A DNA stretch of 64,000 nucleotides, taken from contig NC_081183.1 in NCBI RefSeq assembly GCF_029867415.1, forward strand, positions 114,923,061 through 114,987,060, written 5' to 3'. A program made the position numbers and the translations under genes. The notes below the pieces were generated by a model that worked only from the letters and a program-made list of their open reading frames with translations, was not told the DNA's origin and searched no databases. This document shows, in pieces, positions 5,313-57,638 of the stretch. The DNA comes from Vicia villosa (lineage: Eukaryota > Streptophyta > Magnoliopsida > Fabales > Fabaceae). Numbering within the stretch: the stretch's first letter is position 1; every line of letters begins with the position of its first letter.

Positions 5313-5539
5313 GAGGAAAGTGAAATTGCCACATAAAATATGTTAAAGAAATAAACATGACACATATGCATGATATTCTTTGCCACATCAGCTAAAAATC
5401 ACATGTCATCCACTAAAATCCACTTAAGGTTTAAAAAGAGGGAATCTGGAAATTACAAGGATGGAATCTAAACTTTTTTTTTACAGGGTTGTTTTCCGGA
5501 TTCCCCCCAGATGGCAGGGGGCAAAATAGCGTTTAACCC
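5313..5539 (-). repeat. MULE-1 right terminal inverted repeat
   Basis: Inverted copy of 2166-2394, ending GCGTTTAACCC at 5539 and followed by the 9-bp duplication ATATTTTTA. It lies about 120 bp upstream of the GRF gene start, so it probably contains or borders that gene's promoter. Confidence 0.92.
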
Positions 5540-6350
5540 ATATTTTTATATAGGAAAATTTACTATTGATTTAGATATTTTCGTAAACGTTACCTAAACA
5601 TAAATAATATCTGTATACGGAAAAAAATCTTTTATTGATCTAAATATTTTTCTATATGAAAAATGATATTTATGATCCAAAAATGGTATACGGAAAAAAA
5701 TTTATTATTGATTTAAATATTTTTATATACGGAAATTTACTATTGATCTAGATATTTTTGTAAATGATACATAAACATAAATAATATTTAAATACGGGAA
5801 AAATCTATTGTTGATCTAAATATTTTTATATATGAAAAATGATATTTATGATTCAAATTTTTTTTATTCAAATATTGTATACGGGGAAAAATCTATCATT
5901 GATCTAAATATTTTTTATACGAAGATTTACTATTCATTCAAATATTTTTATAAATGATACCTAAATAAAAATAATATTTGTATACAGAAAAATTTTATTA
6001 TTGATCTAAATATTTTTATATACGAAAAATGGTATTTATGATCCAAATTTTTTTAATTAAAAAATGGTATGCGGGAAAAAATCTTCCATTAATCTAAATA
6101 TTTTGATATACAAAAATTTACTATTGATTTAGATATTTTTGTATATGATATCTAAACATAAATAATATTTGAATACGGGAAAAAATATATTCTTGTCTAC
6201 ATATTTTTAAATAAGAAAAATGATATTTATGATTGAAATATTTATGATACAATAATAATATAAGGAAAAAAATTTATTATTGATCTAAATAATTTTATAT
6301 ACGAAAAAATTATTATTGATCTAAATATTTTTTCTTTTTAAATGTTCTAT
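5540..6350. repeat. AT-rich tandem array, right half
   Basis: Continuation of the array at 1322-2165, with the same internal blocks. It runs to within about 50 bp of the Helitron 3' hairpin. Copies become more diverged to the right. Confidence 0.8.
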
Positions 6351-8460: not shown

Positions 8461-9736
8461 ATTTTTTTATATAAGAAATTATGTATTCATCAATCATAAT
8501 TGTCTCATGTTAAATGTAATTTTATAAGTAGTTTTGGTCAATCGAAAAAATGTATGTTTTTCATAAGAAATTTATGTATTTATACATCATAATTGTATCA
8601 TGTTTTTTTGTAAAAAAAATATATTAATAGCAAATTTTTTTAGTATAAATGTTAAATTTTATCATAAAAAATTGCTAACATTTTCTTTGATAATTGAAGT
8701 TTTTAATATCTTTTATTATACTTTAATAGTATCTTTAATTATAATTAATATATTATATATATTTTTAAAAATAACATAAAAAAATAAATAATGTTTATAG
8801 ATAAAACTATATTTAGTATTATTATATAGTATTATTGTTAGTAGTTTAGATTAATGAAGCAATTCTGACAATAAGTTAATTATTTGATTTATTGATCAAT
8901 AAATAATTCATTCAAATATATAATTATTTGGTAATTATTTAATTATTTGATTTATTGATCAATAAATAATTCATTCAAATAAAAAAAATTAAACAACAAC
9001 ATTTATTAGTAAAACTTATAATAGGTAATCATGGTATATCTGTAATATATTAGTTGACATAGTATATTTTTTATTTGTAATTGAATTCGGGAAAAAAATA
9101 AAATTTATGTAATTGAAATGAATATTATAATTAAAAAAATTATTTATTATTATATTAAATAATTATTTCTCTTTATTTTTTTACAAATAAGATAGTTATT
9201 TTATAATAAAGAGTAAGTTTTTAAAAAATGGACTCTCTCTTTTCATATATATTTTAGACTATTTTTTTACAAATAAGATGGTTATTTCATAAATAGATTA
9301 TTTTATCATTTTTTAAGATAAATTTTGTTTATTTAGGTCTCATTTACCATTACCCATAAATTTATTATGGGTATAATGAATTTATTACAATAAGTATATT
9401 TATTATAATAAATATATTTACCATTACCCATATTAAAAGTAGACTAATATAATTTTATAATTAGTATTAAACAAAAACTAGACTGACAAATGGAATAAAA
9501 ATATATGACACAAAAGGATCTCACTCTATTTAATACAAAATAAATATATCATTATTGGCCTCATATCAAATAGATAAATAATATTATGATTTTTTTATCA
9601 CAATAACAATTTCTTAAAAAACAGTAACAATTGCAAATATTAAAAAAAGACTGATTAATTACTATCACCTAAAACTACACATTCCCAATGATACAACTAA
9701 TAATTACCTACAATTACCTATAAAATGAATTATTAT
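8461..9736. other. Extremely AT-rich sequence, no gene
   Basis: Mostly A/T homopolymer and ATT runs. One direct repeat of about 43 bp (TAATTATTTGATTTATTGAT..., at about 8879 and 8939). Possibly the interior of the minus-strand Helitron. No coding content seen. Confidence 0.45.
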
Positions 9737-10973
9737 CACCTAAACTCAATTACAACTAATTAAAAAAGACGATTAATTATTATCACCTACAATTAATACC
9801 TACCTCTATTGGGTCCTTTGAAGCACATGAATTGATTTATTATAGCAATCAATTAATAGATTTATTATAAATGCTCTCATTTTTTGTGAGTATCATAGGT
9901 TATTATAATAGTAAATGTCATAGTTAAAAATAAATATATTTTCTTTTCTTAAATAAATATTATAATTATAATTACAATTACTAAAAGTTCAGATTTTAAT
10001 TTGCATAAATATAGTATTAAGTTATTATGTCAAATTACAAATATTATTTTATAATTCATTAGCTATTATTATTATTGATGATGATCGATTTGATTATACC
10101 ATGGTCTCAAAATTTTGTTGTTTTGTAATTTAGAGAGTTGTGTTGAAAACATATTAACTTAAATATATTTAGTCTTCCTATCACAATATAGCCATAATAA
10201 ATAAAAAATAAAATAAAGATAATAATAATTTGAAGGGTTGTGAATGTAAGAAGAGAATGATTGTAAAATGACGTTGAAATTGGTTTATGCACATGAAACG
10301 TAATGGTGAGCCGCCAAAAACGAATTGGAAGTGGAATAGTTCAACATTTTTTTTACTAATATTTTTTTCACGTGAATAACAACCCTGAGTGTATCAATTG
10401 TAATTGGCCTCATTAAATGTGATATTTCAAACTTCCCAATTATCAATAGTTATTGTATTTTATTATTTTGATTATTTTAGTTTAATTATTTAAAACTACT
10501 AATGGGAAAGATAATAATTAAAATTGAGAATAATTATCTATAATCAACTAAATACTACTTTTAGATAATAACAAATTCTACATGTTTTCACATAGACAAA
10601 TTATACACTTCAATAAAGGATAACGCATGTGTGTTGGAAATTGTAAGCAATAGTTGTTTCATATGAATAGTAATAATAGTGCATATAGTAATAATAGTGC
10701 ATGCAAAAGAAACGGTTGACACGTTTTTCCTAGGCTAGCCATACCATATCATATCATTACTGCATAGATCTCAATGTAATACCAAATCAACAAAATATTT
10801 TTAACCAACTTTGTAAGCAACCTATCACTATAATTATTTAGAATGAATTGAAACTGCTGGAACTGAGAAAGGGAGGGAATTAACAGAAAATTAGGACTTT
10901 ATTAAATTAGAAATGCAAAAAAACTTAAATATTTCAATATTTTCAATACAAAAAATTATAAGATAAAAAAGAG
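9737..10973. repeat. Tandem duplication copy 1, left part (split by MULE-2)
   Basis: From CACCTAAACTCAATTACAAC onward this matches 15781-17055 almost base for base, including a small region around 10110-10290. The copy is interrupted at 10974 and resumes at 15684. Unknown AT-rich sequence with no coding content. Confidence 0.88.
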
Positions 10974-11040
10974 GAATTTTTTTTTTGAATATCCATTTTT
11001 TTTAAAAAAATTCCAAAAATAACTAGGTTTTCAAAAAAAT

Positions 11041-11190
11041 TACATAAATGTCACTTTTTTGCTAAAAAATACACGTTGTCGCCAGGGGGGGTGGCGACAA
11101 CAATGGGCCTGGAGAGCTGTCGCCAGTGGGCCTGGCGCCCATGTGTTTTTTTTAGGTGTTGTCGCCACCCCCCTGGCGACAACACCCCCC
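11041..11190. repeat. MULE-2 left subterminal hairpins
   Basis: Two stem-loops with the same 10-bp stem GTTGTCGCCA/TGGCGACAAC: 11075-11101 with a 7-G loop, and 11158-11183 with a C-rich loop. Between them are GGGCCTGG and CGCCAGTGGGCCTGGCG. The block is strikingly GC-rich in a very AT-rich setting and is mirrored at the right end. Confidence 0.85.
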
Positions 11191-11569
11191 CTTTATTTTT
11201 TTTTTCTTTTTTTTTTTTTGTAATTTTTTTTCTTTAACATTATTTTCTCTTAAATTTTTTTTATGTTATACTTTTCAATTATTATTTCAAAATGGATTTT
11301 TTAAATAATTATTTTTTTCATGGTATTATATTTTCGGTAATTTTTTACTTTCAATATTAATGTTTTCGGTACTATTTTCTCTTAAATCTTTGTAAATTTT
11401 ATTGGTTCCAAATATTTTTTCCATGGTAATATTTGGTAATTTCTTTCAATATGTATCATGAACTTTTTTTTATTTAGTAATTTTTTTTGTGTTGTAACCC
11501 ATAAAATTTATAAAAAAAAAAGTTCATTTCATTGAAAAAGTAAATTACAAACATCATCGAAACTAATAA
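11191..11569. other. MULE-2 left subterminal AT-rich spacer
   Basis: T-rich and A-rich tracts with no gene; lies downstream of the transposase stop codon and probably includes its 3' UTR and polyadenylation region. Confidence 0.5.
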
Positions 11570-15003: not shown

Positions 15004-15465
15004 GATTTTTATTTGTATCGTGAATGTATTTTGTAATGTTTTTAATTATAATGTATTTGTATCGTTAATGTATTTTAATGTCTTTAATTTTAATGTATTT
15101 GTATTTTAATATATAAATATTTTAAAGAATGCTCAACTTTCAAAATAATGAATCCACCACCAACTTCCAAAAATAATTTTAACAAGATAGATAAAATAAA
15201 ACAATATAAGAGAAATTATTGTTAAAAATTGTAGTTATTAAAAAAATTGTAGCTATTAAAAAAATTGTTGTTAAAAATTGTAGTTATTAAAAAAACAATA
15301 TAAGAGAAATTATTGTTAAAAATTGTTGTTAAAAAAAAATACTAAAAAAAATACGAAAAAAAAATATTAAAAAAATGTAGTTATTAAAAAAAATACTGAA
15401 AATATTTTAAGAGAAATTATGTTAAAGAAAAAAAATAACAAAAAAAAAAGAAAAAAAAATAAGGG
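15004..15465. other. MULE-2 right spacer, A-rich, no gene
   Basis: 3' flank of the PMD gene: repeated ATTGTTAAAAATTGTAGTTA blocks and poly-A tracts. No coding content. Confidence 0.55.
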
Positions 15466-15590
15466 GGGGTGTTGTCGCCAGGGGGGGTGGCGACAACACC
15501 TAAATATTGCATGTAGGCGCCAATGGGCCTGGCGACGACGTTATGGGCCAAGTGTTGTCGCCACCCCCCCCCTGGCGACAACGTGTTGCA
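15466..15590. repeat. MULE-2 right subterminal hairpins
   Basis: Two stem-loops with the GTTGTCGCCA/TGGCGACAAC stem, at 15471-15497 (G7 loop) and 15554-15582 (C loop), separated by CGCCAATGGGCCTGGCG-like sequence. Inverted counterpart of 11041-11190. Confidence 0.85.
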
Positions 15591-15683
15591 GATAGCAAAA
15601 AAGTGACATTTGGGGAATTATTTTGAAAAGTTGGTTATTTCTGAAAAAAAATTTAAAAAATTTGTTATTCAAAAAAAAAATTC

Positions 15684-15780
15684 AAAAAAGAGCAACAAAG
15701 TTAGAATGACATAGTAGTGAAAATCATATATCTCACCAAAAAAAAAAATAAACAATTAAATCATTCTACTTGTGTGTATA
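15684..15780. repeat. Tandem duplication copy 1, right remainder
   Basis: Starts with the right 9-bp duplication of MULE-2 and continues the first duplication copy (AACAAAGTTAGAATGACATAG) up to the junction with copy 2. Confidence 0.85.
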
Positions 15781-17055
15781 CACCTAAAATCAATTACAAC
15801 TAATTAAAAAAAGAAGATTAATTATTATCACCTACAACTAATACCTACCTCTATTGGGTCCTTTGAAGGGCATGAATTGATTTATTATAGCAATTAATTA
15901 ATAGATTTATTATAAATTCTCTCATTTTTTGTGAGTATCATAGGTTATTATAATAGTAAATGTCATAGTTAAAAATAAATATATTTTCTTTTCTTAAATA
16001 AATATTATAATTATAATTATAATTACAATTACTAAAAGTTCATATTTTAATTTGCATATATATAGTATTAAGTTATTATGTCAAATTACAAATATTATTT
16101 TATAATTCATTAGTTGTTACTATTATTGATGATCGATTTGATTATACCATGGTCTCAAAATTTTGTTGTTTTGTAATTTAGAGAGTTGTGTTGAAAATAT
16201 ATTAACTTAAATATATTTAGTCTTCCTATCACAATATAGCCATAATAAATAAAAAATAAAATAAAGATAATAATAAAGATAATAATAATTTGAAGGGCTG
16301 TGAATGTAAGAGAATGATTGCAAAATGACGTTGGAATTGGTTGAGCCGCCAAAAACGCATTGGAAGTGGAATAATTCAACATTTTTTTTTGAATAACAAC
16401 AATGAGTGTATCAATTGTAATTGGCCTCATTAAATGTGATATTTCAAACTTCCCAATTATCAATAGTTATTGTATTTTATTATTTTGATTATTTTAGTTT
16501 AATTATTTAAAACTACTAATGGGAAAGATAATAATTAAAATTGAGAATAATTATCTATAATCAACTAAATACAACTTTTAGATAATAACAAATTCTACAT
16601 GTTTTCACATAGACAAATTATACACTTCAATAAAGGATAACACATGTGTGTTGGAAATTGTAAGCAATAGTTGTTTCATATGAATAGTAATAATAGTGCA
16701 TGCAAAGGAAACGGCTGACACGTTTTTCCTAGACTAGCCATACCATAGCATTACTGCATAGATCTCAATGTAATACCAAATCAACAAAATATCTTTAACC
16801 AACTTTGTAAGCAACATATCAATATAATTATTTAGAATGAATTGGAACTGCTGGAACTGGGAAATGGAGGGAATTAACAGGAAATTAGGACTTTACTAAA
16901 TTAGAAATGCAAAAAAAATTTAAATAGTCCAATATTTTCAATACAAAAAATTATAAGATAAAAAAGAGCAACAAAGATAGAATGACATAGTAGTGAAAAT
17001 CATATATCTCACCAAAAAATAAATAAACAATTAAATCATTCTACTTGTGTGTATA
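15781..17055. repeat. Tandem duplication copy 2 (uninterrupted)
   Basis: About 1.28 kb matching 9737-10973 plus 15693-15780, with scattered substitutions and small indels (for example one ATAGTAATAATAGTGCAT unit fewer). It preserves the empty MULE-2 target site near 16960-16980. Confidence 0.88.
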
Positions 17056-26745: not shown

Positions 26746-27517
26746 ATATCATACATTTCCAACTTTATTTCCAAACTTTAGTATTCGATAAATCTTCATA
26801 AAGTCATAAAGTCAACTTTATTTCCCCACAAATGTTTTTAGGTTACTCACAAGATCGACTAGATTGATCATAGGACATGTGCTTTTATTTTAAACTATGT
26901 TGTTGCGAAACTTGTAAACAAAATGAAGTGAGGCAATTCAAGTAAATTGCAAGAATTTAGTAAATTCTATAAATGATAAATTGCAAACTAAATAAAAATG
27001 GTGTTTACAGGTGCATTTCTCAATAACGCAAATACTTTGAGTTTATATGAGATTTGTACAAATGAATAAACACGCGGATTCTTAACATTAAGACTCCTAT
27101 ATATAATTAATCGAAATAACTGTCTCTGTATCAATATATCATACATTTCCAACTTTATTTCAAAACTTTAGTATTCGATAAATCTTCATAAAGTCATAAA
27201 GTCAACTTTATTTCCCCACAAATGTTTTTAGGTTACTCACAAGATCGACTAGATTGATCCTAGGACATGTGCTTTTATTTTAAACTATGTTGTTGCGAAA
27301 CTTGTAAACAAAATGAAGTGAGGCAATTCAAGTAAATTGCAAGAATTTAGTAAATTCTATAAATGATAAATTGCAAACTAAATAAAAATGGTGTTTACAG
27401 GTACATTTCTCAATAACGCAAATACTTTGAGTTTATATGAGATTTGTACAAATGAATAAACACGCGGATTCTTAACATTAAGACTCCTATATATAATCAA
27501 TTGAAATAATTGTCTCT
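26746..27517. repeat. 390-bp tandem direct duplication (two copies)
   Basis: Copy 1 26746-27135, copy 2 27136-27517, both beginning ATATCATACATTTCCAACTT and differing at only about eight to ten positions. Non-coding. The high identity suggests a recent duplication or gene-conversion event. Confidence 0.92.
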
Positions 27518-28015
<498 letters not shown>

Positions 28016-28065: not shown

Positions 28066-28556
28066 TAATAGTCATTTTTCCCTACCATATAGACGCCTTT
28101 TGACCCCCCCCACCCCCTGGTAAAACAAACACTTGCATAGAATCCCCTCACATTTGTAAAATATCTTTCTATAAACCTTTGGCAGACCAACTCATCAATA
28201 ATGATGATGTGGAAATGTTTTTTATTATTTTCAATTTAAAAGCAATATCAGATGTGTTTAAATATTTCTGGAAGGATGAAAACACCCTTTTGTGAAAAAC
28301 AAAAACTTTAAATAAAATTGACCTTCTTCTTCATGCTCATTTCAAATCCTAACTGTTAGGGCTCTTTGTTTCTGTTTGAAAATTATGAAAAGTTAGTGTT
28401 CTTTGCTCTTTGCTCCGGTTTCCTCTTGAATTGCTTCTAGGAAAAGATTTTGTTGGCTCAAAAATGTACAATTTTTATACTCAGTTATGACATTTATGTG
28501 GTCCTAATGCACACTTTCTATAAGTTTTATGAGGCCCCACATGTTTCTTTCTTCCC
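28066..28556 (+). mobile_element. Old MULE remnant, left terminal part
   Basis: GGGTTAATAGTCATTTTTCC followed by GACGCCTTTTGACCCCC resembles the MULE-1 terminus (GGGTTAAACGCTATTTTGCC). A partial copy of the same terminus occurs just upstream (about 28014-28045). The copia element at 28557 is inserted in it. A transposase-like C-terminal ORF beyond the copia (38704-39042) may be the other side of the same element. No matching right TIR was found. Confidence 0.45.
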
Positions 28557-30054
28557 TGTGAATACAAGATCACACTCGCAAAGATGTTTTTGATTCATGG
28601 TAAACTCCACAAGCATACAAGCAACAAGGCACAAGCAGAAGAACTCAAAGAAAAGCAAGCATTGGTCACTCATGACAGAGCAGGTCGACCTACTATGCAT
28701 ATAGGTCGACTCAATACAAGTAAAACCAGAGGAACTCAGAAAAACAGCAGTCAGGTCGACCTACTCCCATCCCAGGTCGACCTAAAGTAGAGAAATTTAC
28801 ATATCATTCTGCTAGGTCGACCTACACAACAACTAGGTCGACCTAAACTGAGGAAAGGTCCCCAAAACGTATCTGATGTGGATTCTGGTTGACCTACTTC
28901 TTTAACAGGTCGACCTAACTGGGAACAAATGTTATTCAAAGAATATGCAGCTCTGTTAGGTCGACCTAAGCACTACAAGAGGTCGACCTATTTGATCAAA
29001 AATGCCAAAATTTATGGTTTTCTTTGCTCCAACTGATAAGCTCTCATATATATTGTCCAAGGTTAATTATTGCAGTTTTTTTAACACCAACAACTGAAAG
29101 ATACACAAAGGCTTCTCATCTTCGATCATCGACACAACTCCAACACAATTATACACAGTCATTCTTGCGTTGAGGGTTAGCATTCGAGATCGATAACGTC
29201 CATGGAACGGAATTGAAGATTCCCAGTGGGTGATGATTTGTGGGGTTTTTGGTGAATAAAATTCGAGGGTTTTGTCCTCCAAGATAGGTGAATCTTGGGG
29301 GTTTTTATCAAGAGGTTTCATCAAGGATCCATCTGAGTGTGAAGATTGAAGAACAAGGGTTTAAGGCAATTCAAGACACTGCAGAAAAGGGATCAAGTGA
29401 AGCTCTTGGGACACCTTGATCTGGCTCAAGATTAAGGGGGAAGAAGATTCAAAGGATCGACAAATTTGGTTTATTGTTTATCGCTTTGCTTTCTTCTTTG
29501 TATAAACTGCTTTCAACATTAATGGAAGATTTCCCAATTTCAATTTAGAATTGGGGGCAGACGTAGTCGTAGCGAGGACGATCAACAAACTGCCTGAACA
29601 AATATCGTGTTCTTGTCGCTTTTATCTTTTCATTTACATTCTGTTCATATTTGGTCATAATTGCAAATTGATTAACGATTCAAGTGTTAAAATTGTGAAT
29701 TAAGATTCTTCATAAACATCACAATTCACCACGTCTTGAATCTCCATCAATTTGAATATTATCACCAAGTGTTTGTCTTTTTGCTTCTTCCATTATCACT
29801 GCATTGCAAACCAAAGTTTATCAATTTAAAAGTTACTCGATTTTCTGTTGAGAAACGTATTGATTCGATAACATATCATTTCATCGTTAATCTCAATTAT
29901 CTTGTGGTTTTGTCACATATACGACCCTTGCAATAACGGTCCAGAATAGACGCAAGTCGATTCAGAACCGCTTTCGCTTTAGTTCGAAATAATTCCGAAA
30001 AACTCTGTGAGATCTATTCACCCCCCCTCTAGATCCTTAGGCCAGCGTCTAACA
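28557..30054 (+). repeat. 5' LTR of the copia element (1498 bp)
   Basis: Starts TGTGAATACAAG, ends CGTCTAACA. Pairs with 36972-38468. Contains the palindrome array (28682-28989), a TATA-like CATATATATT near 29046-29054, and a long downstream untranslated part. The array therefore lies in the U3 region, just upstream of the probable core promoter. Confidence 0.96.
28682..28989. promoter_or_regulatory. Phased AGGTCGACCT palindrome doublets in the copia LTR
   Basis: Starts of the 10-bp palindrome or close variants: 28682/28703, 28753/28774, 28814/28835, 28886/28907, 28958/28980. The spacing inside the doublets is 21, 21, 21, 21 and 22 bp; between doublets it is 71, 61, 72 and 72 bp. Eight copies are exact. 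The 11-bp linkers and inter-doublet sequences are unrelated to each other. One variant, GGTTGACC (28887), fits loss of the central CpG by C-to-T change. The same array sits in the 3' LTR from 37097. The array ends about 57 bp before a TATA-like sequence. Function unknown; see findings. Confidence 0.9.
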
Positions 30055-30107: not shown

Positions 30108-33100
30108 ATGGCTTCCGGACCTAAAGGGGCTCACAATAGAGCTCCAGTTTTCAACGGTGAAAACTATGGCTATTGGAAGGATTGTATGTGTGTCCATATC
30201 AATGCCATTGATAGGAACATCTGGACAGCTATTGTTGATGGTCCCTTTCAGATCACCATAACAAATGCAGCTGGTGCAGTTGTTCCAAAACCAGAAAATA
30301 CTTGGGATTCTGAAGATGAAAAGAGATATGGATACGATTGGAAAGCGAGAAACATTCTAATCTCATCTCTAGGAGTTGATGAATACTATCGCGTTTCCCA
30401 TTGTAGATCTGCTAAAGCTATGTGGGACACATTGCAAGTTGCCCACGAGGGAACGAATGATGTCAAACTAGCTAGAATCAATACGTTAACTCAAGAGTTC
30501 GAACTCTTCCACATGGAAGATGGTGAATCCATCGAAAACATGCAGAAGAGATTCGTTCACTTGAAAAATCGTTTAAATTCTCTTGATAGACCTATTTCCA
30601 ATGCAGTTGCTACTAACAAAATCTTAAGATGTTTGAACAGGGAATGGCAACCCAAGGTTACAGCAATAAAGGAAGCAAATGATCTAAACACCTTAGACAT
30701 TACCACTCTCTTTGGTAAACTAGAGGAACATGAACAACACCTTAAATGCCTTGACATGCATGAGAAAAGGGCAAAGAAAGAGAAGAACATGGAGAAAGAG
30801 GTAGAGAAGAAGTCAATAGCTCTAAAGGCTTCAAGCTCCAAGACCTCAAGACAAGAGCTAGAGGATAGTGATACAAGTGATGACGAAGACTCCGATGATG
30901 AGGAAATGGGACTGTTTGTGCGAAGATACAACAAATATCTAAAGAAAAATGGAGCAAAACATTCTGACAAAGGCTTGATCAACTATAGAAAGCAATCGAA
31001 CAAGTTCAAACAAGATGACAACAACAAAGGAAAAATCAAAGGCCCTTGCTTTAATTGTGGGAAAGTCGGTCACTACAAACCAGATTGTCCATACCTTAAG
31101 AAGGAAAAAGAGAAGAACCAAAGCAAAGGTCATAACAAATCTAAAAGAGCCTACATAGCATGGGAAAGTGATTCATCTAGTGAAAGCTCATCAAGCGATG
31201 AAGAAGAATCAGCAAACTTATGCCTTATGGCTCATCAACACAAGAAAAAGAAAGCTGAAAAATGTCTTGACATTGCCGAAAGGTTGTGGTTCCTTGATAT
31301 CGGATGTTCAAGACACATGACGGGAGACATATCTCTTTTCGTTGTGTTTCACGCAAAGAAAAAGGGGTATGTCACCTATGGAGATAACAATCGGGGAGCC
31401 ATACTTGGTAAAGGAAGTGTAGGTAACCCTTCTACCACAACTATAACTGATGTACTGCTAGTAGAAGGCCTTAAGCATAATCTTTGAAGTATAAGTCAAT
31501 TGTGCGACAAAGATTTTAAAGTAATGTTTACAAATTCTGGCTGCACAATAGAACATACTAAGAAAAGAGACATTATGTTTAATGGCTTAAGAGTAAACAA
31601 CATCTATATGCTAAACTTGGATGAGGTATCTAAGTCTAGTACCAAGTGTCTAATTGCTCTAGGCGAAGACTCATGGCTTTGGCATAGACGTCTCGCCCAC
31701 ATAAATTTTGACTTACTTAATAAAGTTGTCACAAAAGATTTAGTAACCGGCTTACCTAAAATGAAGTTTTCAAAAGATCATCTATGTGATGCTTGTCAAA
31801 AGGGAAAGCAAACAAAAATCTCTTTTAAATCAAAGAACGTGGTTTCAACATCACGCCCTCTTGAACTACTTCACATGGATCTCTTTGGCCCTTCAAGGAC
31901 TAAAAGCATAGGTGGAAACATCTATGGTTTTGTCATTGTCGATGATTACTCTATATTTTGTTGGACAATCTTTCTACCTAGTAAGGATCAAACTTTTCCA
32001 GCTTTCACACAATTTGCAAGATTATGTCAAAATAAAATGAACACCAAAATAGTTGCAATTCGAAGTGATCACGGTGGAGAGTTTGAAAACTATCTTTTTG
32101 AAAAATACTGTGATAAACATGGAATTGAGCATAACTTTTCAGCTCCTAGAACACCACAACAAAATGGGGTGGTTGAACGTAAAAATCGGGTTCTAGAGGA
32201 GTTGGCAAGAACAATGCTGAATGAGGGTAGTCTACCTAAGTATTTTTGTGCTGACTCGATTAGCACCACATGTTATGTTTTGAATAGGATAATAATACGT
32301 CCTATACTGAACAAAACTCCCTATGAATTACTAAAAGGTAGAAAACCAAATGTATCTCATCTCCATGTATTCGGTTGCAAGTGTTTTGTTTTGAACAATG
32401 GTAAGGATAATCTTGGTAAATTCGATGCTAAAGCTGATGAGGGCATCTTCCTTGGTTACTCACAATCTAGCAAAGCATATCGGGTATATAATAAAAGATT
32501 ACTTATAGTAGAAGATTCAGTACACGTGTCTTTTGAGGAATCTTATACAAAATATGTCGAGAAAGGTCTTTCGTTTAATGGTGCAGGTCCATCCACTGAA
32601 GACATTGTCAAAGATAAGGAAGACGGGAATGAAAATATTGTAAAGAAAGATGCTGAGAAAGAGAAAGATGAGTCTCATGATGAAAATGAAAAGGAGAGCA
32701 TCTCAAACAATGAAGAACTTCCTAAGGCCTGGACAAATGTGAAAGACCATCCAATTGACAACATAATAGGAGACATCTCAAAGGGCGTTACAACACGCTC
32801 AAAGATAAGTAACTTCTGTCATCATTTTGCTTTTGTTTCACAAGTTGAGCCGAAAAACGCTAAGGACGCATTACTTGATGAGCATTGGCTAATGGCCATG
32901 CAAGAAGAATTAAACCAATTTAAACGGAATGATGTTTGGGACTTAGTTCCTCATCCGGGAGATCATCAAGTAATAGGCACTAGATGGGTTTTTCGTAACA
33001 AACTTGATGAAAACGGCGTTATTACTAGAAACAAAGCTAGATTAGTTGCCCAAGGTTACAATCAAGAGGAAGGTATTGATTATGAAGAGACATACGCTCC

Positions 33101-34382
33101 TGTAGCACGTCTCGAAGCTATTCGCCTCTTACTTGCCTATGTTTATTCTAAAGACTTCAAACTATTCCAAATGGATGTTAAAAGTGCCTTTCTAAATGGC
33201 TATATAAATGAAGAAGTCTATGTTGCTCAGCCACCCGGCTTTGAGAATTACATGTATCCAACTCATGTTTATAAGCTGAAACGTGCTCTATACGGTCTTA
33301 AACAAGCCCTTCGGGCTTGGTACGAACGTTTGAGCAAATTTCTTCTTAACCAAGGGTACTCTAGGGGTAAAGTTGACACTACTCTCTTTATTAAAATAAA
33401 AGATAAAGATGTACTCTTAGTCCAAGTTTATGTAGATGATATTATATTTGGCTCGACTAATGCAAAACTTGTCAAAGATTTTTCTAAGCTTATGCAGAGT
33501 GAATTTGAGATGAGTCTCATGGGTGAGCTAAATTTCTTCCTTGGTCTACAAATCAAGCAACTCAGTCATGGAAAGTTTGTAAGTCAAACTAAATACTGTA
33601 CAGAGCTGCTCAAAAGATTTGGAATGAGTGAAGCGAAGGAGATTGACACACCTATGGCAACAAATACTAACCTAGACAAAGATGAGAAAGGTGAAGAGGT
33701 TGATGTGAAATTATACCGAGGTATGATATGTTCATTATTGTATCTTACTGCCTCAAGACCAGATATTATGTTTAGTGTGTGTATGTGTGCAAGATATCAA
33801 TCTTGTCCAAAAGAATCTCACTTAAAAGCTGTCAAAAGAATTCTGCGATATTTACGTGGAACTACTACATATGGCCTATGGTATCCAAAGGGAAAAAAGT
33901 GTTATTTGGTAGGATTCTCCGACTCAGATTTTGCTGGCTGCAAATCCGATAGAAAAAGCACCAGTGGAACATGTCATCTATTCTCAAATTCATTGATAAG
34001 TTGGCATAGCAAGAAACAAGTATCGGTTGCATTATCTAGTGCTGAGGCAGAATATGTAGCTGCCGGAAGCTGCTGTGCGCAGATATTATGGCTCAAGCAA
34101 CAACTTCTTGACTTTGGCATTAAGCTTGATCGTATACCTATCATGTGCGACAACACAAGTGCCATAAACTTGAGTAAGAATCCTGTCTTACACTCACGAA
34201 CCAATCATATTGAAATAAGGCATCACTTCCTAAGAGATCATGTAGAGAAAGGAGACGTTATATTTGAACATGTAGAGAGCAAGAAGCAACTAGCTGACAT
34301 CTTCACCAAACCTCTAGCAACGGAGCAATACTTCAACATTCGTAGGGAATTAGGGATACTCGATATCTCTAATTTGGGCTAA
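30108..34382 (+). pseudogene. copia gag-pol polyprotein, one internal stop
   Basis: The ATG at 30108 (MASGPKGAHNRAP) is the first good start after the PBS. Gag: UBN2-type capsid region (about residues 20-210), acidic stretch, CCHC knuckle CFNCGKVGHYKPDC. The protease site reads WFLDIGCSRHMTG, with Ile in place of the usual Ser of D-S-G. TGA at 31485-31487 interrupts the sequence before [10 protein letters not shown]. After it one frame runs to 34382: integrase zinc finger (H-H-C-C in LWHRRLAH...CDACQKGK), DDE residues in [19 protein letters not shown] and NGVVERKN, reverse transcriptase ([23 protein letters not shown]) and RNase H ([17 protein letters not shown]). The stop and the protease substitution argue against activity; everything else is intact. 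Confidence 0.93.
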
Positions 34383-34823: not shown

Positions 34824-35029
34824 AGGTCGACCTAATCTGCCTCTGAGTCGACCTACACAAGTCATTTTTCAACATACAAATTAAAATGCCCAGTTACGTC
34901 GACCTACCCTTCTTTTAGGTCGACCTAATCTACATTTTTTTAAAGGCTTTTCTGTTAGGTCGACCCAGCCCTAAATTAGGTCGACCTACTGCTATAAAAT
35001 TTTCCCAAATTGGGTCTGTTGGTCGACCC
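34824..35029. promoter_or_regulatory. Second palindrome-doublet array, upstream of the third copia ORF
   Basis: Starts of AGGTCGACCT or variants: 34824/34845, 34896/34917 and 34957/34978, each pair exactly 21 bp apart, with doublets 72 and 61 bp apart, plus a single copy at 35020. TATAAAAT at 34993-35000 lies 6 bp after the last doublet, and the third ORF starts at 35165. The layout copies that of the LTR array although intervening sequence differs. It suggests an internal promoter for the third ORF. Confidence 0.8.
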
Positions 35030-35164: not shown

Positions 35165-36584
35165 ATGCCTCCAAAATCAAGAAAGGGAAAGGAAATTGCC
35201 TCGGGTTCATCATCTCAACCGGTAAGTGCTCTTGTTCATCCTGATTGTAGGGAAAATTTTGAGAAATGGCAGATGAAAAGAAAAATTGTTAGGCAATATA
35301 TCTATAACCCAAATGTTGTCAAACGTATGCATATCCCCGAGGGTGCTAATCTGATTGAACACCAAAATATTCATCCATTGGTGCAATGTGATACTCCGTA
35401 CTGTGAGAATACTGTTAGGGCCTTCTATGCAGGATTTGAAAAAGGGGACGGTTGTAATTTCCGTTTCAAAATGGCTCTAGGTCGCATGTTGTTGACAAAC
35501 GGGCTTGGATAAGCATTTTTGGTTTAAAAATTGTGGGAGATGAATATTGTATGGAAGACGGGGACATACCGGGAAACTATGACCATGTGGCCTACATGAA
35601 ATCTATTCTCAAAGACCCTTCCGTCTTTGACAAACCTAATGAAGCTATAACAGCTGGTCACCTAAAGCGAGATCCTAGGCTCCTAAATTGGGTCATCTCA
35701 AGAGTCATTCGACCAAGAGCAGGAGGTTACTCAAGAATCGAAAGAAATGAAGTGGTGCTCATGTATCTGCTGCAAAACAGAACGCGTGTACATTGGCCTT
35801 ACTTTCTAGCTGCCAAGTTTCATGAGGTACAACAGAAAACTACAGCCCTGTGTTATGGATCAATAATTCAAACAATTGTCAATCATTTCGGCATGAGGCT
35901 TGATCATTTGCCCTACATACGTTGCAACAGTCTCAAGACTTCTCACAAACAACCTTGACCCTGATGGGATATCATTGGGATCCAAATCAGAAAACCTACT
36001 ATCTCATTCAAAAGGGAACCGGGAAAGTCATTTACAATTATGACGATCCCACTGAATTTGGACACATAGCAGGAAATGAAGAAGAAGGCCTTGATCAAGA
36101 CAATGCAAATGATGATGATCACCCTATGGAAGATGTTCCACAAGATACGGATGAAAATTGGAGATATGTTCCTCCTCAACAAGAGGAAATCCCTTGGGGA
36201 TACACAGCTCCGCCTCCGCCGGATCAAACCAACATCATTTCCATGTTAGAAAATATGCAACTCCTACAACAACAGCACTTCGACACACAGCAGCTCCAAT
36301 TCCAACAGATGCAACAGCTCCAACAAGATCGCTATGACGAACAACAACGACAATATCACTCGTTGTACAACTTGGTTCAAGACCACAAAAGCGATTTTGA
36401 GACGTTTGCATCCAACTCGACCCTAAGACAGAATCAGTTTGAAGAAACTGCTTTGCATCGTCATGCCAACATAAGCCAAAGCTTCAACACTCTCAACCTA
36501 TCTGTGCTGGATTTGTTGGAACAAGTTGAAGAAGATCGCCCTCATACATTTCAAAGAGGAAGAGGAAGAAGGGGCAGGCGTTAG
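35165..36584 (+). pseudogene. Extra ORF downstream of copia pol (env-like position), two frameshifts
   Basis: Three overlapping frames form one ancestral protein of about 470 residues: 35165-35512 (MPPKSRKGKEIASG start), about 35490-35958 (KRDPRLLNWVISRVIRPRAG and HWPYFLAAKFHEVQQKTT), and about 35915-36584. Frame changes fall near 35490 and 35915. The middle part resembles the 'putative plant transposon protein' type of domain; the C-terminal part is Gln-rich with probable coiled coil (QLQFQQMQQLQQDRYDEQQ) and ends in an Arg/Gly tail (RGRGRRGRR). No signal peptide or membrane segment is seen, so an envelope role is not supported. SIRE/Maximus elements are known to carry an additional ORF at this place. 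Confidence 0.75.
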
Positions 36585-36956
36585 GATGCATTCTCATTAC
36601 ATCATCTCATTGCATTTCATTTCTCTATTATTATGATCATTTGCTACATGCTCTAAGTACTTAGTTTTTTTTAGAATATTATGTCTGTTGAAATGTACTT
36701 TCATACCTGCTTGGTTCTTATGTTATAACTATCTACCTTTTATCTATTATACTATGAATGCTAACGTTTTATCTATGTTTCTCTCGTTACTCTCCTCTTC
36801 TATTTCGTTGTATCTCTTTTGATGTTGTCAAAGGGGGAGATAGATGCTGAGTGTACGAGGGAGCTCAGTATGCAGCAACTTAAGCTTACGCATACAAGCT
36901 CAGTATGGAGCTTTTACCACTTATTGCCAAAGCTTCTACTATCGGTTTGCCATCAT

Positions 36957-36971
36957 AAAAAAGGGGGAGTA
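36957..36971 (+). other. Polypurine tract of the copia element
   Basis: AAAAAAGGGGGAGTA immediately before the 3' LTR; primes plus-strand DNA synthesis in LTR retrotransposons. Confidence 0.85.
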
Positions 36972-38468
36972 TGTGAATACAAGATCACACTCACAAAGAT
37001 GTTTTTGATTCATGGAAAACTCCACAAGCATACAAGCAACAAGGCACAAGCAGAAGAACTCAAAGAAAAGCAAGCATTGGTCACTCATGACAGAGCAGGT
37101 CGACCTACTATGCATATAGGTCGACTCAATACAAGTAAAACAAGAGGAACTCAGAAAAACAGCAGTCAGGTCGACCTACTCCCAACCCAGGTCAACCTAA
37201 AGTAGAGAAATTTACATATCATTCTGCTAGGTCGACCTACACAACAACTAGGTCGACCTAAACTGAGGAAAGGTCCCCAAAACGTATCTGAAGTGGATTC
37301 TGGTCGACCTACTTCTTTAACAGGTCGACCTAACTGGGAACAAATGTTATTCAAAGAATATGCAGCTCTATTAGGTCGACCTAAGCACTACAAGAGGTCG
37401 ACCTATTTGATCAAAAATGCCAAAATTTCTGGTTTTCTTTGCTCCAACTGATAAGCTCTCATATATATTGTCCAAGGTTCATTATTGCAGTTTTTTTAAC
37501 ACCAACAACTGAAAGATACACAAAGGCTTCTCATCTTCGATCATCGACACGACTCCAACACAGTTATACACAATCATTCTTGCGCTGAGGGTTAGCATTC
37601 GAGATCGATAATGTCCATGGAACGGAATTGAAGATTCCCAGTGGGTGAAGATTTGTGGGGTTTTTGGTGAATAAAATCGGAGGGTTTTATCCTCCGAGAT
37701 AGGTGAATCTTGGGGGTTTTTATCAAGAGGTTTCATCAAGGATCCATTTGAGTGTGAAGATTGAAGAACAAGGGTCCAAGGCAATTCAAGACACTGCAGA
37801 AAAGGGATCAAGTGAAGCTCTTGGGACACCTTGATCTGGCTCAAGATTAAGGGGGAAGAAGATTCAAAGGATCGACAAATTTGGTTTATTGTTTATCGCT
37901 TTGCTTTCTTCTTTGTATAAACTGCTTTCAACATTAATGGAAGATTTCCCAATTTCAATTTGGAATTGGGGGCAGACGTAGTCGTAGCGAGGACGATCGA
38001 CGAACTGCCTGAACAAATATCGTGTTCTTGTCGCTTTTATCTTTTCATTTACGTTCTGTTCATATTTGGTCATAATTGCAAATTGATTAACCATTCAAGT
38101 GTTAAAATTGTGAATTAAGATTCTGCATAAACATCACAATTCACCACATCTTGAATCACCATCAATTTGAATATTATCACCAAGTGTTTGTCTTTTTGCT
38201 TCTTCCATTATCACTGCATTGCAAACCAAAGTTTATCAATTTAGAAGTTAATCGATTTTCTGTTGAGAAATGTATTGATTCGATAACATATCATTTCATC
38301 ATTAATCTCAATTATCTTGTGGTTTTGTCACATATACGACCCTTGCAATAACGGTCCGGAATAGACGCAAGTCGATTCAGAACCGCTTTCGCTTTAGTTC
38401 GAAATAATTCCGAAAAACTCTGTGAGATCTATTCACCCCCCTCTAGATCCTTAGGCCAGCGTCTAACA
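36972..38468 (+). repeat. 3' LTR of the copia element (1497 bp)
   Basis: Collinear with the 5' LTR. Carries the same palindrome array from 37097. Here one palindrome has become GGTCAACC (about 37190), while the fourth doublet, mutated in the 5' LTR, is GGTCGACC. The two LTRs have thus lost different CpGs. Confidence 0.96.
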
Positions 38469-38703
38469 TTCCCTACAAATATTAATTTTTTGGGTATCTT
38501 TGTATTTGCATAAATGTGTTTTTTATGTCGTATTTCACCATGGGGAAACTTTGTGCAAGACAAACACACGTTTTACAACGGAAGGAGTGAAAGGATTGTA
38601 CAAGGGAAGGACTCTGATAAGTGGAGTTTTTTAAACTGTTAGATGTTAGCTTGGCAAGACTCTTGATGACATGATGAATTCCTTTGAAGAATAACAATCA
38701 TAA

Positions 38704-50970: not shown

Positions 50971-51281
<311 letters not shown>

Positions 51282-52842: not shown

Positions 52843-54806
52843 TGTAACACCCGTATAATTTTAATATTAATTTAATTGGAATATTGAATTAATAATTAGA
52901 ATTATAGGGATTTTGTGAAAATAATGAATAAATAATGGTTTATGGCATTTGGGCCATATGAGGAAATAGTAAAGATGGGGGTGTGGTTTAGTAAAACTTT
53001 CACTAATCTCAATATTATTATTTTTCATAAAATAATTGGGAATTGGGAAGAAAGAACGTGAAAGAACAGAAGTTGGAACGAGGAACGTGACGGAGAACTG
53101 TAGAGGGAGAGACCAAGAACCAAGACTTTTATCCGAGGTAAGGGGAGACTCTCCGTTTAATCTCTTTTATCGTATTATAGGTGATAGTATGGATTAGGAG
53201 TATGGTTGGATCCATTGATTCTATATTCTGAATTGTTATTTGTGTTCATCATTGAAATTTGGACTGTTAATCCCTAATAACTGATAGATTTAGGGTATGA
53301 TGAATGAAATTGATTATGGAATCATATACTGTGGTTGTGGATGAATTCGTATGCTGTTTAGATGTGAATTTTCTGGTTTTTAGACTCAAAATCGTGGACT
53401 GGTATGAGTAAAAACGAATGGGTTTTGGACTGTTACGAAGTTGCAGGTTCTGGACAAATTTTTCTGGTGTTTCGCGTATGAAACAGTGCCATACGCGTAT
53501 GGGATGAGGTCATACGCGTATGAGGGACATTCCCCGAGGGCTATACGCGTATGATACGCAGCTGCCCTGTCCCAAAGTACCTTGTACTGGTGAATTGCGT
53601 ATGAGAGCGTATGAGGATGCTCATACGCGTATGGAATTTTTAAAAGAGGAAGTTGATCTGATGATACGCGTATGGCAAGGCTGATACGCGTATGAGGTTG
53701 TTTTTAGGCCATTTTTGACTCTGAGGGAATGCGTATGATACGCGTATGAGGGATGGTGATACGTGTATGGACGCGTATGGACTTGATGATACGCGTATGG
53801 CTTCTGTATGTGAAATTTTTGTTTTGTGATTTTTCTGGAAAGTTCAATGATGTGTAACTTTCGATCTGTAGGCCTATTTTGTATGCTGTTTGAGACTGTG
53901 TAAACCCTGTGATGTGATTATGTGGTTTACTGATGATTGATTGTATTGAATGATGTTAATGTATATATGAACATGCTTAGTAATGATGATGATGATGATG
54001 AAATGAGTATAGATGATGCTACTCATAGAATGGTAAGGATGAAAGTATGTTATATATATATATATGTTTGCATGCATTCATAGTCATTTGATGAGGATTG
54101 TATCTTAATGATGAGAGGATACAGTGAAGGGCAAGATTCCCATTGTGTGGAATCTGTGCTGGCAGGGCCGTATCTGGATGATGATAGATCGGTCGGTGGA
54201 TGATTTCCACTGGTGATGTTGGTACCACATGCATAGTGTCAGTTTCATACATGTGCATGACTTGTTTTAATATGATGATATATGTTATATGACGACTTGT
54301 CTGTTTATCTGTGGATGTGTGAATGATGATTTGTCTGAATATGAAACAATTGGGTGAATGATATAACTATGATATGTTATTATTTATGATGCAATAACAT
54401 TGGTTAACTGTGATGAGACTCACCCTTACTTGTTGTCATTTTCAGATTGAGGATAGCGGCGCGACTTGGTGAGGATTAGCTCATAAGTCGGTTATTAGTT
54501 ATCGAGTCGGTGTCATGCTCTGGTAGTTGTAACACTGGGAACGCGTTGTTTTGGAGTTTTGGATTATAACTCTATTTTGTTTTGTTATTTGAAGTCTTAT
54601 ACATTAAATGATGAATGTTGACTTGATGAATTAATTCCGCTGTGCAAAACATGACTTTGGTTAATGAGTTATAATTTCAGACGTTTCAGTGAATGCATGA
54701 CATGTACCAATGTGATTTTCTTTACTTATGAATTGTGACACCTCTTGCATGCTTACTCTGATTTAATAATTGTTTAATTGCCGCGGGTTATTAGAGGGGT
54801 GTTACA
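52843..54806 (+). repeat. 5' LTR of the gypsy element (1964 bp)
   Basis: Complete LTR, TGTAACACCC to GGGGTGTTACA. Contains the ATACGCGTATG array (53470-53799), a TATATATATATATG stretch at about 54050 that may be the TATA region, and the 3' part shared with the 3' LTR remnant. Confidence 0.93.
53470..53799. promoter_or_regulatory. Phased ATACGCGTATG palindrome array in the gypsy LTR
   Basis: Fifteen copies or partial copies start at 53470, 53491, 53512, 53543, 53554, 53593, 53603, 53633, 53664, 53684, 53727, 53738, 53759, 53769 and 53789. Eight are exact (53491, 53512, 53543, 53633, 53664, 53684, 53738, 53789). Intervals are 21, 21, 31, 11, 39, 10, 30, 31, 20, 43, 11, 21, 10 and 20 bp; 13 of 14 lie within 1.5 bp of a multiple of 10.5. 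The core ATACGCGTAT is a palindrome with two CpGs. Flanking sequence is not repeated. Confidence 0.88.
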
Positions 54807-57140: not shown

Positions 57141-57638
57141 CTGTGGATGTGTGAATGATGATTTGTCTGAATATGAAACAATTGGGTGAATGATATAACT
57201 ATGATATGTTATTATTTATGATGCAATAACATTGGTTAACTGTGATGAGACTCACCCTTACTTGTTGTCATTTTCAGATTGAGGATAGCGGCGCGACTTG
57301 GTGAGGATTAGCTCATAAGTCGGTTATTAGTTATCGAGTCGGTGTCATGCTCTGGTAGTTGTAACACTGGGAACGCGTTGTTTTGGAGTTTTGGATTATA
57401 ACTCTATTTTGTTTTGTTATTTGAAGTCTTATACATTAAATGATGAATGTTGACTTGATGAATTAATTCCGCTGTGCAAAACATGACTTTGGTTAATGAG
57501 TTATAATTTCAGACGTTTCAGTGAAGGCATGACATGTACCAATGTGATTTTCTTTACTTATGAATTGTGACACCTCTTGCATGCTTACTCTGATTTAATA
57601 ATTGTTTAATTGTCGCGGGTTATTAGAGGGGTGTTACA
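57141..57638 (+). repeat. 3' LTR remnant of the gypsy element (498 bp)
   Basis: Exactly collinear with 54309-54806, with two substitutions. It begins at CTGTGGAT, a string also expected at the RT side of the junction. The first 1466 bp of the 3' LTR, including the palindrome array, are deleted. Confidence 0.95.

Follow-up and report, generated by a model that had tools for sequence, protein, structure and literature searches.

Repeated cis-boxes in front of the LTR TATA box are known from the U3 enhancer repeats of the tobacco Copia elements Tnt1 and Tto1. The array described here is placed in the same way but the Tnt1 and Tto1 repeats are few in number, have different motifs and, to our knowledge, include no paired palindromes. 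VANDAL elements, which are MULE DNA transposons, provide another comparison. The targets of their VANC proteins are, in the portion of PMC5735166 drawn on here, short noncoding repeats which expand and contract and whose motif varies between related families, and the repeats described below do likewise. However, the VANC motif in that portion, YAGTATTAY, occurs in one orientation and its binder is known, whereas the array in our window (the whole 64 kb stretch of DNA that was analysed) is made of palindrome pairs and lies in an LTR retrotransposon, not in a VANDAL (MULE) DNA transposon. The same portion makes no mention of spacing or helical phasing of the VANC motifs.

The closest described system is that of the RM boxes of Sireviruses. 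In the part of Bousios et al. 2010 (PMC2829016) used here, these are palindromes clustered within the upper half of the LTR, upstream of its TATA box, with further copies ahead of ENV; they number at least eight per element and have a CGG-CCG core, and Tnd-1 is counted by that paper although it lacks the core. One role later suggested for RM boxes, at least in the parts of the literature used here, is hairpin folding, and Bousios 2016, as reported in portions of PMC10760457 and PMC5311732, describes fast-evolving palindrome clusters within the regulatory region of Sirevirus LTRs. The element in the window has ten palindromes per LTR and a further seven internally. As with RM boxes, the clusters lie upstream of a conserved LTR TATA box, and extra copies are found before the gene in the ENV position (family A and E loci, defined below) and are absent where that gene is absent (one family B element). 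The RM box of a grape element, CGGTCGACCG in the part text of PMC2829016, differs from the window motif in the outermost base pair only, and a search of the host genome for exact pairs of CGGTCGACCG with gaps of 0-30 gave none. The CGG-CCG core given in that part text is not found; the window motif has AGG-CCT and the core AGGTCGACCT (GCGTCGACGC in family E). Judged by its sequence, the array is a member of the described RM-box kind except for the CGG-CCG core. The body text of PMC2829016, in the part used, makes no mention of helical phasing or of regular box spacing, and helical pairing of RM boxes was not found in the open literature searched, subscription papers being outside the scope of the search. 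A literature search with the motif string gave nothing bearing on the array among the matches listed, judged by title and the first lines of the abstract.

The element carrying the array has TTCCC on either side (28552-28556 and, next to the 3′ LTR, 38469-38473). Its 5′ LTR (28557..30054, + strand, ends TGTGAATACA...CGTCTAACA) is 97.5% identical over 1498 bp to the 3′ LTR (36972..38468, + strand), and the K2P distance between them is 0.0245. The gag-pol frame, taken from the list of open reading frames, runs from 30108 to 34382 on the + strand with one in-frame stop at 31485-31487. It matches Retrotran_gag_2, zf-CCHC, Pol_BBD, gag_pre-integrs, rve, SH3_retrovirus and RVT_2, so that gag, Pol_BBD, integrase and RVT_2 stand in the Copia order. 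Two polypurine tracts (36830-36839 and 36957-36969, + strand) and a C-rich run by the LTR end (C7 in the 5′ LTR, C6 in the 3′ LTR) are features of Sireviruses. However, the PBS is a variant, CA being followed by AGTGGCATCAAGAGC where the published Sirevirus PBS is TATCAGAGC after CA/ATTGG. On these sequence features the element is classed as Copia and Sirevirus-like rather than as a Sirevirus.

The LTR array (28682..28989, no strand assigned) consists of ten GTCGAC-type palindromes starting at 28682/28703, 28753/28774, 28814/28835, 28886/28907 and 28958/28980. Eight of the ten are exact copies of AGGTCGACCT and the other two read AGGTCGACTC (28703) and TGGTTGACCT (28886). The start-to-start steps are 21, 50, 21, 40, 21, 51, 21, 51 and 22 bp. 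Recomputation of sites and steps therefore returned the five doublets, 21-22 bp apart, given in the preliminary description, and the ten sites of the 3′ LTR (37097..37404) have the same steps and register. The array is also far above chance: 38 matches to the motif with at most two mismatches were found in the 64 kb window, and in 100 shuffles of the window the mean was 9.93 (sd 3.33) and the highest count 22. A chance origin of the pairs is excluded by these shuffles together with the reversed-pattern controls described below. Nine of the ten CpGs in the array fall within palindrome sites and one falls outside. RM boxes are described as forming a CpG island; the CpG observed/expected ratio here, calculated from composition, is 0.67 at a GC content of 0.44 for the LTR array, and 0.92 at 0.42 for the internal array. 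Six differences between the two LTRs lie in the array, two of them in site CpGs (28779 and 28890), which is consistent with decay after insertion. Should the element be methylated, the retention of CpGs at the sites would suggest that these were maintained in the source copies.

Paired GTCGAC sites were found in several families, namely A (the window element), B (L001, L019 and others), C (L022), D (L043), E (L012, L013, L058, L063, L067-L069), F (L064) and G (L065). In the window a TATA-like box, TATATAT (29047..29053, + strand), lies 57 bp beyond the last palindrome, as the preliminary description had it, and this distance is nearly constant. Among 41 LTR arrays of the A-D type the last site is 57 bp from the TATA box in 28, 55 bp in six and 59 bp in one; the remaining six, L028 among them, gave no match to the TATA pattern. 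The distance is 58 bp in family E, 62 bp in G and 99 bp in F (one locus each). In families C and D (L022, L039, L043) the second site of a doublet is in some cases AGGTCAACCT. This contains, on the opposite strand, TTGACC, which we take to be W-box-like, and loss of the site CpG may thus have created a WRKY-type site.

The spacing of the sites was examined over the host genome (2.03 Gb) by searching for pairs of the exact motif, with reversed patterns as controls. Pairs 21 bp apart numbered 8096 (control 0). Between 22 and 38 bp there were 4027 pairs (control 1), of which the matches listed were, by eye, at 22 or 30 bp, and the range 23-29 bp contained only 12 (23 bp, five; 25 bp, one; 26 bp, two; 28 bp, one; 29 bp, three; control 0). 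Four pairs were 10-20 bp apart (three at 20 bp, one at 14 bp; control 0). Pairs 41-48 bp apart numbered 360 (control 0), and those listed were, by eye, mostly at 41-42 bp with an exact or degenerate site in between, a few being at 44 and 48 bp. Such pairs are not independent observations, since thousands of them go back by descent to few source elements. In the loci fetched there were 268 distinct pairs of neighbouring GTCGAC sites no more than 80 bp apart; 250 of these were within 1 bp of 21, 30, 41, 51, 61 or 72 bp, where even spacing would place 26%. The sample includes 16 loci (L045-L060) chosen as spacing exceptions, a bias which runs against the spacing claim, and the ladder of values was fixed after the first arrays had been seen, only the search with GTCGACGC being later. 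The steps fitted best to a period of 9.8 bp when taken over 18 distinct arrays and of 10.05 bp when distinct step values were used, rather than 10.5 bp; none of 5000 random sets of steps was as regular as that observed. Exceptions to the spacing are inherited too, with steps of 13 and 33 bp in family C, 54 and 32 bp in family E and 44 bp in four internal arrays of family E. The second type of motif, GTCGACGC, was searched for with gaps of 0-30 and gave 1425 and 1556 matches on the two strands (controls 4 and 1). Among the 100 matches listed a spacing of 21 bp was seen in 66 and one of 22 bp in 26, and the other eight were at 11, 23, 32 and 36 bp.

The check proposed in the preliminary description, that the spacing should be kept while the linkers drift, was supported by these pairs. 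The 92 of the 100 listed GTCGACGC pairs which are at 21 or 22 bp contain 67 distinct linkers (49 plus 18) with a mean identity of 0.41-0.42, falling into 25 clusters (16 plus 9). In the window element the likeness among linkers and among spacers is not beyond chance, either in the LTR (p=0.21 and p=0.38) or in the internal array (p=0.81 and p=0.72). The statement that the linkers are unrelated thus stands within the window element (all p≥0.21), though the LTR and internal spacers are weakly alike (p=0.024). When the window array was compared with that of L028 the sites were 95% identical and the spacers 71% (58% when shuffled), and all nine intervals agreed within 1 bp. The sequence downstream of the array shows 93% identity between the two, so the spacers may differ by exchange of U3 and not by slow drift.

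The array is probably a promoter-proximal platform on DNA for a putative dimeric DNA-binding protein. As the site is self-symmetric a dimer would be expected, and as the sites come in doublets there would be two dimers per unit. Each GTCGAC-core palindrome would bind one dimer and two dimers, two helical turns apart, would form the working unit. Spacing near to whole turns combined with free linkers points to proteins that sit next to one another on the same face of the DNA duplex. The units would be stacked at approximately whole turns and the sites would come to lie on the same side of the helix, in most cases 55-62 bp upstream of the TATA box of the LTR. The location upstream of this box and of the extra reading frame described below points to control of a promoter, and the outcome could be activation of transcription or, for instance, protection from methylation. 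The idea of a dimeric or tetrameric protein on one helix face had been put forward from the window alone; the spacing over the genome and the drifting linkers now support the geometry, and the protein would follow from it by inference. A whole-turn rule which is close to strict while linkers drift means that the function is probably exerted on double-stranded DNA and needs neighbouring sites to share one face, and a doublet of 31 bp together with half-turn variants makes a precise probe for finding the binder.

The binder could be supplied by the host. Other plant Copia elements have cis-repeats in their LTRs which host factors bind; a host factor that has exactly this paired site is not known to us. 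A dimeric host transcription factor, perhaps stress-related, acting on the boxes as an enhancer has in our estimate an even chance of being the explanation. The array stands directly before the TATA box at a conserved distance and is retained in a family B element which lacks the extra reading frame, both as expected of a host enhancer, and the RM boxes gave mainly matches to stress factors in the part of PMC2829016 used. Against this, the flanks of the core vary by family within one host and a single factor would need to tolerate that variation.

A third array, besides those of the two LTRs and absent from the preliminary description, lies inside the element at 34824..35029 (no strand assigned). 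It has seven sites with steps of 21, 51, 21, 40, 21 and 42 bp; its linkers differ from those of the LTR array while the 21 bp doublets and the steps of 51 and 40 bp are common to both. A TATAAAA within it (34993..34999, + strand) is a weak candidate since it is not conserved in the relative L061. Downstream is an extra reading frame in the env position (35165..36584, + strand), broken into three frames (35165-35512, 35458-35958 and 35904-36584). Its middle piece has a sub-threshold match to PF20167, 'Putative plant transposon protein' (21 of 45 bits), and the outer two pieces have no domain matches. A sequence search of the PDB with the frame gave three matches with E values of 0.31-0.88, which are not meaningful, and two AlphaFold2 models were of low confidence (mean pLDDT 36.5 and 39.4). 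A search of viral contigs found no relatives of the frame and none of the exact doublet. On the platform reading, the internal paired palindromes would be a second platform, serving as part of a promoter and co-regulating the extra frame.

Doublets at 21 bp upstream of the extra frame are found in family A (the window element and two of the three doublets of L061, the first of which has 19 bp instead of 21) and at four family E loci (L063, L067-L069). Each of these four loci has before the frame one doublet of the AGGTCGACCT type and one of the GCGTCGACGC/AGGTCGACGC type. The first internal doublet is alike in the two families, AGGTCGACCT followed by GAGTCGACCT (34824-35029, L061, L063, L067-L069), and the type of the second differs between them as it does in their LTRs. 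An array before the extra frame is thus common to families which have diverged. Families A and E are 76% (819 residues) and 72% (144 residues) identical in pol, their LTRs can be aligned over 144 and 43 bp only, and their extra frames are 26% identical. At three of the family E loci (L067-L069) the extra frame is open from its ATG as far as the fetched sequence extends. At the internal array another observation concerns two homologous predicted proteins from other source records (P0002 and P0003; DNA not seen), which have N-terminal LGRP repeats spaced first 7 and then 14 residues apart, as would be expected if the 21 and 42 bp steps exist there. A coding explanation, in which 21 bp represents seven codons as in these LGRP repeats, was rejected; the steps of 20, 22, 40, 50 and 61 bp are not multiples of three and so the reading frame is not what is conserved.

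It is also conceivable, but improbable, that control is encoded by the element itself in the manner of VANC, the extra frame producing a sequence-specific DNA-binding protein whose targets would be the paired palindromes and whose effect would be activation or de-silencing of its own family. Arrays are present in the LTRs as well as ahead of the extra frame, in line with this. Doublets of GCGTCGACGC/AGGTCGACGC occur in family E both in the LTR and before the extra frame and were seen at neither place in family A, among the loci examined, so that the motif type differs between related families as it does for VANC targets. This shift in step at two targets, along with the diverged frame, resembles the coevolution of VANC proteins and their targets (PMC5735166, in part). 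Four published Sireviruses with boxes and without ENV have no internal boxes in the portion of PMC2829016 used, and the family B element mentioned above (L020, L062), in which the LTR array follows about 700 bp past the end of pol with no space for the frame, likewise has no internal array. However, that same element retains its LTR array without the frame, although the protein could act in trans. In family E doublets of the AGGTCGACCT type are likewise present at both places, A and E share their first internal doublet, and the product of the frame matches an uncharacterised family only weakly. It is doubtful that the product of the env-position frame is a factor binding DNA as a dimer of dimers, and not an envelope, with each family recognising itself through a coevolving motif and protein. 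If this were so, a Sirevirus would recognise itself by phased pairs in the two LTRs and also in the promoter of the frame, and its own family would be switched on or shielded from silencing. The spacing rule makes the role of the env-position frame as a self-regulator directly testable.

Folding of the nucleic acid is a much poorer explanation than binding of a protein. A palindrome doublet is able to fold, its two neighbouring palindromes forming a stem closed by an 11-nt loop, and such RNA or DNA hairpins could feed small RNAs or RNA structure; small RNAs are in excess on the palindrome clusters of maize Sireviruses (PMC10760457, in part). The focus of Bousios 2016, as far as the portions used here convey it, was on secondary structure and small RNAs, whereas among 158 distinct doublets no sign of selection for hairpin pairing was seen here. 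The arms of these doublets pair at 8.639 of 10 positions compared to 8.638 when arms are re-paired, and changed positions were compensated in 10 cases and not compensated in 215. Spacings of 30, 40, 51, 61 and 72 bp have no obvious meaning for a loop. It is very unlikely that hairpins are the function of the array and they may be a side effect.

There is likewise little chance that the array is a decayed, functionless minisatellite which inherited its spacing from tandem duplication of one unit. Tandem duplication has enlarged the arrays of some relatives (L027, L022, and several places among the 41-48 bp matches listed), the copies are related by descent, and the weak likeness of LTR and internal spacers would also fit. 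However, the linkers of the window array show no likeness beyond chance, the 67 linkers in 25 clusters noted above, among the matches listed, all keep 21 or 22 bp, and the site CpGs were kept while only one other CpG is found in the LTR array. The last long interval, measured by eye as a net length, is 51 bp in A and L028, 50 bp in D and 40 bp in B and C, a change of about one whole turn, unlike the indels shared by at least two copies in the R-U5 region of the same LTRs, which were counted by script (58 in all; 37 of a single base pair, 20 that are 2-7 bp long and one of 9 bp). Private R-U5 indels include one of 10 bp and one of 11 bp. The claim that duplication does not explain the spacing must thus be narrowed as duplication did build some arrays, but many linkers in several families have the same spacing and duplication does not by itself explain this.

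Other repeats were noticed in the window. A 383 bp tandem duplication (98.4% identity, period 390 bp) lies near the 5′ side of the Copia element at 26746-27518. Direct repeats at 54309-54806 and 57141-57638 (498 bp, 99.6% identity, 2.8 kb between them) may be the LTRs of a short element of very recent origin, and those at 9734-10973 and 15777-16968 (90% identity) possibly belong to an older LTR or composite element; an inverted pair, 10974-11261 and 15399-15683, is found near the latter. An odd element of mixed repeats has tandem arrays in direct orientation at each end (1307-2394 and 5313-6332) and an inner inverted pair (2166-2394 and 5313-5539) at 98% identity. A near-perfect palindrome of 112 bp (98%) is present at 51059-51170.
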